From: Candidatus Saccharimonadota bacterium
GTDB taxonomy: Bacteria > Patescibacteriota > Saccharimonadia > Saccharimonadales > UBA4665
Assembly: GCA_020427985.1 (NCBI GenBank)
Contig: JAGQNR010000003.1
Coordinates: forward strand, 62,001-126,000
DNA: 64,000 bases
Direction: 5' to 3'
Within the stretch, counting starts at the first letter, position 1. Each line of letters begins with the position of its first letter. The translations under genes and the position numbers were made by a program. This document shows positions 20,265 through 58,323 of this stretch, in pieces. Below the pieces are notes generated by a model. It saw nothing but the letters and a program-made list of their open reading frames with translations, was not told the origin of the DNA and did not search any database.

Positions 20265-20341
20265 GGCGGCGTAGCTCAGCTGGTTAGAGCACAGGACTCA
20301 TAAGCCTGGGGTCAGTGGTTCAAGTCCACTCGTCGCTACCA
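20265..20341 (+). tRNA. tRNA-Met (CAU), elongator
   Basis: A 77-nt cloverleaf with encoded CCA. The acceptor stem pairs GGCGGCG with CGTCGCT (two G-U pairs), the anticodon loop is CTCATAA, and the D arm is GTAGCTCAGCTGGTTAGAGC-like. The D and variable regions resemble elongator tRNA-Met, including GGGGTC after the anticodon stem. TACAAT lies 17 bp upstream of the 5' end. Confidence 0.93.
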
Positions 20342-22126: not shown

Positions 22127-23848
22127 CTACATATTGGTTGGAGAAGACGTCACTTGACTAGTAGAGGTTTTTGTCGGGTCAGGCTTAGCATTGTTGCCAA
22201 GCACTACAATAATATCGGCGTTGGGGTAGCGTGCTGTCACGGCAGCATCGGTGACGACCTTGGCTGTAAACATATTTTTAAGCTCGGCTATAGAGGCTGG
22301 TTTTTTGCCACTGCTATTATCAATAATCAGTGTAGTTGGTTGCTCTGGGTCATAATTGCCCTGAAGCAGCACATCCATGCCCTTGCCAATAATTTTATTG
22401 CTTTGCAACCGTGCCAAGCCAGCATATTGTGTACTATTGAGTACGACAACACTAGCCGCTTCCTTGGTAACTGGCGTTGCGCTAAAGGTACGCCGAATTT
22501 GCATAGCAATCTCGCTAAAGTCATCAACACCGGCAGTTGGCACCTGCACAGATTGCCCGCCTATCATTTGGCCGGCCAACATGTAAGTATTTGGTCCCTT
22601 TAGACTGTTGATGTTGTACGAATCAATCTTGGTGGGGTCAACCTTTTTGGCATAGTAGTAAAGTGTTTGTATTTCGCTAATCTGCAAGTCGGTTTTGACA
22701 TTGCCCGCTACGGCGCTAAACAAGTTGCTGACTTTAAATGGGTTGGCAATCACTGCTGGGTCAGAAGCTTTCTCTTTTATGGCAAGCAGCATCGTACGCT
22801 GGTTTTCGGTACGGTTATAGTCAGCTTGCGGGAACCCATAAGCGCCATACCCATCGCCACGCGCCCGAGCCAGATTAAGCGCCTGCTTACCGTTAAGCGT
22901 CACCTGCCCATTAGGATATTTGGCCAGAGCGCAGCAGTTACGCGAGGTGTAGTCGAGATTTGGGTCATAAATACCACGCGAGTCGCTGCTTTTAATGGTA
23001 ATAGTAATGCCGCCAACAGCGTCGACCAGGTCCTTGAAGGCAGTGTAGTTAATGAGTGTGGTGTAGTGAATCGGCAGTTTGGTGACATCCTCAACTACGT
23101 TTTTAAGACCTTCCATATTTTGCAGGGGGTACACTGCATTAATCTTCATATGTCCCTCGCCTGGTACAGACACCCATAAGTCGCGGGGAATACTGAGCAT
23201 CATGGCCGTATTGGTTCGGGTGTCAATACTAAGCACCATTATTGAATCGGTCAGTTCCCCACCGTTATGACCTAAGTCGTCGGCCGAGTTTCCCGCCACT
23301 AGCACATTTACCCGTCCCTCATCGTTTTTTAAGTCAGTCGGATGAAACAATCCCAGCAGGCTAAAAGGGTTATTGTTGCCGGTAATATTTGCCACATTTT
23401 GATAAAATTGCAGCCCAAAGAGAGCCGCACCAATCAATACAACTACGCCAAACATTTTAAGATAGCGCTTTTTCTTTGACGATTGAGACCTAGGTTGTTT
23501 GGTAGACTTTTTAAACAAGCCCCGCTTGCCTGATTGATTGCGGCCCTGGCTATATGGATTGAGCGTATCCTGCAGTTCCGAGGCAATTTCTACGGCTGGC
23601 TTTTGGTTAGGAAGCGATACCGGCCTGTCTACCCTTACGATAGAAGGCTCTTGGAGTACCCGAGGAGCAGGAACGGTGGGAGTTTTGGGTGGGAATGCAG
23701 CGGCTTGGGGAGTGGGGAGTGAACGAGGACTCGCCGAGAAACGTGGCGAAGCATAATTGGGCCGTCTAGGCCGCTGCCCTGCCCCAGTTATAAATCCGTC
23801 GACACTTGCAGCACGACGAGGCTTAAAATCATCGTATTCGTTTGACAT
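22127..23848 (-). CDS. LytR-CpsA-Psr (LCP) family glycopolymer ligase
   Basis: A 573-residue wall protein. A disordered basic, proline-rich N-terminus of about 130 residues precedes one transmembrane helix (about 132-150). The LCP core has DSIMVLSIDTRTNTAMMLSIPRDLWVSVPG, an INAVYP segment, VDAVGGITI and LNLARARGDGYGAYGFPQADYNRTENQR, matching the catalytic Arg and Asp positions. A LytR_C-type domain (VVVLNSTQYAGLARLQSNKI) follows. It transfers lipid-linked glycopolymers to peptidoglycan. TAAAAT lies 11 bp upstream of the ATG. Confidence 0.92.
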   Translation of the reverse strand: MSNEYDDFKPRRAASVDGFITGAGQRPRRPNYASPRFSASPRSLPTPQAAAFPPKTPTVPAPRVLQEPSIVRVDRPVSLPNQKPAVEIASELQDTLNPYSQGRNQSGKRGLFKKSTKQPRSQSSKKKRYLKMFGVVVLIGAALFGLQFYQNVANITGNNNPFSLLGLFHPTDLKNDEGRVNVLVAGNSADDLGHNGGELTDSIMVLSIDTRTNTAMMLSIPRDLWVSVPGEGHMKINAVYPLQNMEGLKNVVEDVTKLPIHYTTLINYTAFKDLVDAVGGITITIKSSDSRGIYDPNLDYTSRNCCALAKYPNGQVTLNGKQALNLARARGDGYGAYGFPQADYNRTENQRTMLLAIKEKASDPAVIANPFKVSNLFSAVAGNVKTDLQISEIQTLYYYAKKVDPTKIDSYNINSLKGPNTYMLAGQMIGGQSVQVPTAGVDDFSEIAMQIRRTFSATPVTKEAASVVVLNSTQYAGLARLQSNKIIGKGMDVLLQGNYDPEQPTTLIIDNSSGKKPASIAELKNMFTAKVVTDAAVTARYPNADIIVVLGNNAKPDPTKTSTSQVTSSPTNM

Positions 23849-23918: not shown

Positions 23919-23956
23919 ACAAACACCCTTCAGACTGTATCTGCGAGGGTGTTTGT
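23919..23956 (-). terminator. Hairpin downstream of the 31-codon ORF
   Basis: ACAAACACCCT and AGGGTGTTTGT form an 11-bp stem with a 16-nt loop, 25 bp after the small ORF. The T-run that follows on the minus strand is weak, so it may act as a terminator or as a 3' stabiliser. Confidence 0.55.
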
Positions 23957-23981
23957 GCAAGCCGCTAATGCACTTAAAGCC

Positions 23982-24077
23982 TTATAGTCGCATTAGCTCT
24001 TCGTCTACGGCCACAATAGCCGCGTCGCTGCATGGAACTAACTCATAAGCTAGACCATGTAAAGCCGCAAATACCAT
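23982..24077 (-). CDS. 31-residue small protein with very strong expression signals
   Basis: ATG 24077 to TAA 23984-23982 encodes MVFAALHGLAYELV-PCSDAAIVAVDEEL-MRL, a mildly acidic peptide with an aliphatic first half and one Cys. A perfect AGGAGG lies 5 bp upstream of the ATG, the leader is about 80 nt and A/C-rich, and the promoter is a perfect TTGACA-17-TATAAT. A stable hairpin lies downstream. No homologue is known to me. The combination of signals is much stronger than chance, although the peptide might be a leader rather than an end product. Confidence 0.6.
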   Translation of the reverse strand: MVFAALHGLAYELVPCSDAAIVAVDEELMRL

Positions 24078-24163
24078 GTAGGCCTCCTGTTTTTATATTT
24101 GTTGTTTTTGTTTTGTTAGTTTTGGGAATGTTATTTCGTGTTTGTTTTCTCAAAACTATTTAC

Positions 24164-24192
24164 ATTATATCAAAAAGGTTATGTTTTGTCAA
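24164..24192 (-). promoter_or_regulatory. Perfect consensus promoter of the 31-codon ORF
   Basis: TTGACA (24192-24187), 17 bp, TATAAT (24169-24164), all twelve positions matching the sigma-70 consensus. Predicted start near 24157. The 80-nt leader is rich in A and C and nearly free of G until the Shine-Dalgarno. Confidence 0.85.
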
Positions 24193-28486: not shown

Positions 28487-28561
28487 TGGTTGCGGGACCA
28501 GGACTCGAACCTGGGACCTCATGGTTATGAGCCATGCGAGCTGCCGCTGCTCCATCCCGCG
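28487..28561 (-). tRNA. Initiator tRNA-Met (CAU)
   Basis: A 75-nt tRNA with encoded CCA. The first base C1 faces A72 (CGCGGGA against TCCCGCA), the mismatch that marks bacterial initiators. Anticodon loop CTCATAA. The anticodon stem reads CATGG/CCATG, so only two of the usual three consecutive G-C pairs are kept. The D loop is short (7 nt). A terminator follows. Confidence 0.92.
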
Positions 28562-29325: not shown

Positions 29326-29401
29326 GGGGGTATAGCTCAGTGGTTAGAGCAGTCGGCTCATAACTGATTGGTCCTTGGTTCAAGTCCAAGTACCCCCACC
29401 A
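29326..29401 (+). tRNA. tRNA-Ile2 (CAU, lysidine-modified)
   Basis: A 76-nt cloverleaf with encoded CCA. Acceptor GGGGGTA/TACCCCC, anticodon loop CTCATAA, and TAGCTCAGTGGTTAGAGCAG-type D arm with TTGGTC variable region and GGTTCAAGTCC T arm closely resemble E. coli tRNA-Ile2 rather than tRNA-Met. TATAAT lies at 29275-29280. It is the expected TilS substrate. Confidence 0.88.
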
Positions 29402-58104: not shown

Positions 58105-58159
58105 CAAACGGTCAAACCATGGCTACAGGTAGCTATGGTTTGCTTCTGCTCGGAAGGCT

Positions 58160-58260
58160 TATTTCCGTTTCGGACTTGTCCCTTTGACTGATTAGAGTAG
58201 GGCTTACCGTTGCGGCACAGTTGAGGAATTTCACCTCATTCCGGATTTGTTTATTAAAAG
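58160..58260 (-). promoter_or_regulatory. Cobalamin (B12) riboswitch-like aptamer
   Basis: On the minus strand the leader reads CCGGAATGAGGTGAAATTCC, then TCAACTGTGCCGCAACGG and TAAGCC, followed after a short stem by AGTCAAAGGGACAAGTCCG. This matches the cobalamin core GGGAAnnnGGTGAAAnTCCnnnnCTGnCCCGCAACTGTAAGC and its downstream AGTC box. Two hairpins follow, AAACCATAGCTAC/GTAGCCATGGTTT and the Shine-Dalgarno hairpin. TACTAT near 58309-58304 is a possible -10. A variant or partial aptamer is possible, since the P1 closing stem was not confirmed. Confidence 0.7.
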
Positions 58261-58323
58261 TAGAGACTGCCTAGAGTCTAGCATGAGCATGACTACGCTA
58301 GATATAGTAGTTTTTACGGCAAG

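Follow-up and report, generated by a model that had tools for sequence, protein, structure and literature searches.

On the minus strand of the window, as we call the whole 64,000-nucleotide stretch of DNA analysed here, a 31-codon open reading frame is flanked by strong expression signals. Its conservation shows it to be a genuine gene, encoding an unannotated micro-protein. Homologous ORFs of 24 to 34 amino acids are spread over no fewer than 18 families of Saccharibacteria, and a literature search returned no description of the gene. We regard the chances as about even that this locus is a stand-alone transcription unit of a Saccharibacteria micro-protein family and that its product acts as a docking module, which would bind and modulate one conserved partner.

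Organization of the locus

The preliminary description had listed a promoter, an A/C-rich leader, an AGGAGG, the 31-codon ORF and a hairpin. All of them were recovered, in this order, on the minus strand:

24164 to 24192, minus strand: sigma-70-type promoter TTGACA-17-TATAAT, matching at 12 of 12 positions (-35 TTGACA at 24192-24187, 17-nt spacer, -10 TATAAT at 24169-24164)
24144 to 24156, minus strand: short inverted repeat GTTTT-GAG-AAAAC where the predicted transcript begins; relatives carry symmetrical elements of other spelling at the same place
24089 to 24143, minus strand: A/C-rich, weakly structured leader (74% A+C over the whole leader, counted from about 24157)
24083 to 24088, minus strand: Shine-Dalgarno sequence AGGAGG, 5 nt 5´ of the ATG at 24077
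23982 to 24077, minus strand: 31-codon micro-protein gene MVFAALHGLAYELVPCSDAAIVAVDEELMRL followed by its stop codon, marked by ORF conservation and codon-level selection
23919 to 23956, minus strand: hairpin ACAAACACCCT/AGGGTGTTTGT, a probable intrinsic terminator; most relatives have a strong terminator at the same place

Judging from the sequence, transcription would start near 24157. In the window's hairpin the T-rich part lies inside the 3´ arm, which makes it weaker as a terminator than the hairpins of relatives.

The promoter had been called the best in the window, and it is indeed the only perfect TTGACA-17-TATAAT found there. The entire genome contains 11 perfect promoters, compared with one in a backwards control. 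In this genome and three relatives, the other perfect promoters mostly lie a few bases 5´ of the start codons of ordinary genes; among those of the genome, only the micro-protein promoter is combined with a long A/C leader, a 6-nt Shine-Dalgarno sequence and a mini-ORF. Such promoter and translation signals would imply high expression. A second promoter of the same genome (L002, G000:C41:35628-35686) has a near-identical -35 to -10 stretch; a very short leader separates it from an ORF of 299 codons.

Selection on the reading frame

The peptide is present in all six other genomes of the same genus that were searched, with 55-71% identity and E-values from 2.5e-10 to 6.7e-6 per genome. Pairwise codon comparison within the genus gave a pooled pS of 0.80 and pN of 0.21 in the ORF frame (pN/pS 0.26). 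In the shifted and antisense frames tested, pN exceeded pS, the opposite of the ORF frame, and none of 500 column shuffles reached the observed ratio. This establishes that the peptide sequence itself is under selection. Two checks proposed in the preliminary description thus came out in favour of the gene: substitution is biased to synonymous changes, with strong purifying selection in the ORF frame only, and the search for the peptide in relatives found homologues in distant genomes, with frame and translation signals kept.

That description had offered a tiny protein or a regulatory RNA as the product. Codon-level selection and order-wide conservation of the frame speak for the former, and RNA as the main function is disfavoured. 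A transcript working mainly as a regulatory or dual-function RNA, with the ORF secondary, would agree with the predicted folding of the window transcript, which is better than that of shuffled sequences (z -3.9), and with the 5´ element, whose symmetry is retained while its spelling changes. Nevertheless, it is mainly the synonymous sites of the ORF frame that change, the leader is variable in length and sequence, and no Rfam family was matched at gathering scores, the only match being sub-threshold and on the opposite strand. We consider the RNA reading unlikely.

Distribution in Saccharibacteria

A first profile of 13 rows gave credible matches in many families of the order. A broader and more sensitive profile was built later; one genome (G011), negative with the first profile, was positive with the broader one. 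Altogether 71 loci were assembled, of which 69 were retained for statistics, families being anonymised. When 381 genomes sampled across the phylum were searched with the broad profile at E 0.01, a single match fell outside the class; it lies inside a longer frame and was taken as chance.

No credible copy of the gene was found in the 81 genomes of family f26, nor was there a match in g55, a genus of the same family as the window, searched with the first, less sensitive profile only. These absences, the latter at lower sensitivity, suggest that the interaction with the partner is dispensable in some lineages. A diverged copy hidden 5´ of tilS in f26 was considered and rejected. Promoters and leaders were looked for in 14 regions; one f26 genome (L076) has a 49-codon ORF behind a similar promoter and an A-rich leader, located some 0.88 kb upstream of where its stretch ends at tilS, and this ORF shows no recognisable family motif. 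It could be a replacement gene in this genome.

A 28-base promoter pattern, from which the ORF was excluded, was scanned over 84,980 genomes and matched 59 times, 40 times in Saccharibacteria, Patescibacteria or unassigned bacteria and 19 times in other organisms. A promoter kept with its reading frame lost had been named beforehand as evidence against the gene, and this is not what was seen: the family ORF was found 3´ of the match in 34 of the 40 and in none of the 19, counts which speak for specificity and not for independence, since the pattern was derived from the same family and many of the genomes overlap those of the earlier searches. Records carrying the ORF bear the names Candidatus Saccharibacteria, Saccharimonadia or Patescibacteria in their titles. 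In two of the six ORF-less cases among the 40 (L195 and L200), the available sequence ends at the promoter.

Transcription signals in relatives

The promoter matches at 12 of 12 positions in 42 of the 69 loci and at 11 or more in 61, compared with 7 of 560 stretches drawn at random from the same regions, where the micro-protein gene itself may be included in some draws. The spacer measures 16 bases in most relatives (17 in the window), a Shine-Dalgarno sequence of at least 4 nt precedes the ORF in 65 of 69 loci, and leaders vary between loci both in length and in sequence.

Like these promoter counts, three further values overstate the evidence, because the loci are related and not independent: a terminator-like hairpin lies within 200 nt past the stop codon in 62 of 71 loci (17 after shuffling); of 67 leaders, 28 have an even palindrome with a length of 8 or more in the initial 30 nt of the transcript, and 16 have one of 10 or more (4.8 and 1.1 expected, respectively); and the 5´ stretch folds better than its shuffles, with a mean z of -1.33 against 0.14 for a downstream control stretch. 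The palindrome is spelled in several ways (TTGTGATCACAA, TTGTCATGACAA, TTGATGCATCAA, TTAGTCGACTAA), and looped stems replace it in other loci, including the window with its GTTTT-GAG-AAAAC. Symmetry of this self-complementary element is thus kept while its sequence changes between loci; it might be either an RNA hairpin or a DNA site. A fixed operator was rejected on account of the varying spelling (GTGATCAC, GTCATGAC, GATGCATC, AGTCGACT) and of the loci with looped hairpins instead.

Genomic neighbourhood

Longer flanks were available for 15 loci, and in 12 of these the gene is located 0.3-7.5 kb upstream of tilS, which is mostly followed by ftsH, murJ and lepA in the same orientation (gene names assigned by reading the sequences, not profile-based). 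Upstream, at a distance of about 0.5-0.6 kb, many families encode a divergent RRM-type RNA-binding protein, and several genera belonging to the family of the window encode a protein whose C-terminus has a hydrophobic segment. The shared position upstream of tilS-ftsH-murJ-lepA supports orthology of the loci, not any function. The gene directly downstream varies by family: LytR-CpsA-Psr, a second mini-ORF, tRNA, tilS or others. In the window's genus it is LytR-CpsA-Psr (22127-23848 in the window).

This arrangement bears on the possibility of a cis-acting leader peptide (an attenuator or arrest peptide) controlling the downstream gene, here LytR-CpsA-Psr. Within this genus, that gene begins just past the ORF and hairpin, the hairpin could be an attenuator, and a short ORF followed by a hairpin is also the layout of leader peptides of the TnaC and SecM type. 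Across families, however, no constant gene is found directly downstream, as such control would call for, and the peptide is conserved despite changing downstream genes. A terminator usually follows directly 3´ of the ORF; unlike TnaC and SecM loci, the unit is closed by its own terminator and its neighbour gene is not conserved. We judge control of this kind quite unlikely.

The second mini-ORF, itself conserved, encodes MLIQDIxP and then a tail that varies and is mostly basic; it lies directly downstream of the first gene in eight loci of seven families (L010, L011, L012, L026, L027, L038, L039 and L138), and no convincing occurrence of it away from the first gene was found. The beginnings of the two peptides, YELxP in the first and QDIxP in the second, look alike, which may point to a shared binding site or mean nothing.

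The pair could be taken for an antitoxin-like or toxin-like system, in which the small protein acts alone or with the second mini-ORF, and several of the eight loci that have both ORFs do encode an acidic peptide followed by a basic one. Most loci are nevertheless without a recognised second ORF, the family displays shared synteny and not mobile scatter, and we found neither a PADLOC match nor a transmembrane toxin-like stretch. This makes a toxin or antitoxin very unlikely.

The second mini-ORF can also be read as leader plus core of a RiPP precursor. Together with the small size and short extended motif of the first peptide, whose YEL segment would be the recognition strand, it could suggest that the family belongs to such precursors. 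Of the maturase types searched, PqqD/RRE domains were found in 0 of 38 genomes and SPASM in 1 of 38, with positive controls, and no maturase family recurs beside the gene. Moreover, the conserved motif reaches the C-terminus of the peptide, so that a leader followed by a variable core is not what we see. A RiPP precursor is therefore highly improbable.

Peptide sequence and predicted structure

Members of the family conform to the consensus Phi-[AS]-[YF]-E-[LF]-x-x-T-x-[DN]-x-x-[IL]-L-x-[IV]-D-x-Phi-L-x-x-[LI], whose conserved positions extend to the C-terminus. In 61 aligned rows, D25 and [YF]11 are invariant (61/61 each) and E12 is nearly so (58/61). Net charge is not conserved across the family (-9.5 to +3.5), and the peptide, as read from its sequence, contains no transmembrane or hydrophobic membrane stretch. 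AlphaFold2 predicts residues 11-30 with pLDDT around 90, as an extended segment followed by a helix at 19-29, with a pTM of only 0.40; Foldseek found no match to this model. Pfam, NCBIfam, PHROGs, PADLOC and PDB gave no significant match, and Pfam/NCBIfam at E up to 1 a single insignificant one.

Mimicry of the ribosomal protein uS2 was considered, as a C-terminal segment of that protein, VPCNDDAIKAID, resembles the stretch VPCSDAAIVAVD of the window's genus. The uS2 matches (per-genome E-values around 0.02 to 0.15) appear with a genus-weighted profile only and are absent at E 0.01 with the broad profile; the weak matches in f26 and f6 comprise uS2 and an apparent methionyl-tRNA formyltransferase, judged from sequence, at E 0.002 to 0.15. 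The likeness, being weak, no better than matches to an unrelated protein and lost with the broader profile, was judged to be chance.

Proposed function

The failure of the RiPP, leader-peptide and pure-RNA readings in their tests favours an abundant cytosolic docking micro-protein. The near-perfect promoter would drive strong transcription, the A/C-rich leader would keep the mRNA open for ribosomes and the 5´ hairpin would possibly protect it, yielding an abundant cytosolic small protein. Its conserved extended segment Phi-[AS]-[YF]-E-[LF]-x-x-T-x-[DN] and, following it, an amphipathic helix of the form x-x-[IL]-L-x-[IV]-D-x-Phi-L-x-x-L would dock onto one conserved partner and modulate it, as other small-protein regulators do; the product would thus be neither an enzyme, nor a membrane peptide, nor an RNA. 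Given the pTM value and the Foldseek result, conservation and secondary structure are what this guess at a docking module is drawn from. The variable net charge and the absence of the gene from f26 and, at lower sensitivity, from g55 also speak against it.

Short regulatory proteins of bacteria such as Sda, MciZ and SpoVM are similar in having tens of residues, a single gene and a short conserved motif, and in the proposed binding of one partner. The micro-protein differs from them in showing no Pfam/NCBIfam similarity or structural match and in being confined, as far as searched, to one order. A more specific version, which we find rather doubtful, makes it a Saccharibacteria-specific, very abundant regulator of a core machine, expressed from one of the genome's few perfect promoters, with a symmetry-keeping 5´ element and sometimes in an operon with the basic MLIQDIxP peptide, which might use the same docking site.

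Saccharibacteria are tiny parasitic bacteria with very small genomes, living on other bacteria. That many families keep the gene behind a near-perfect promoter in such genomes suggests that it matters. The profile libraries searched have missed it, and it offers a concrete target for small-protein proteomics. Genetic tools are scarce in Saccharibacteria, and the promoter-leader module might find practical use for expression in them.

Other features of the window

Three tRNA genes with anticodon CAT lie within 9.2 kb of one another in the window, at 20265-20341 (plus strand), 28487-28561 (minus strand) and 29326-29401 (plus strand); in several relatives, a CAT tRNA lies right 3´ of the micro-protein gene. 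A cobalamin riboswitch at 58148-58280 (minus strand) scores barely above the Rfam gathering score (33.0 versus 31.5).
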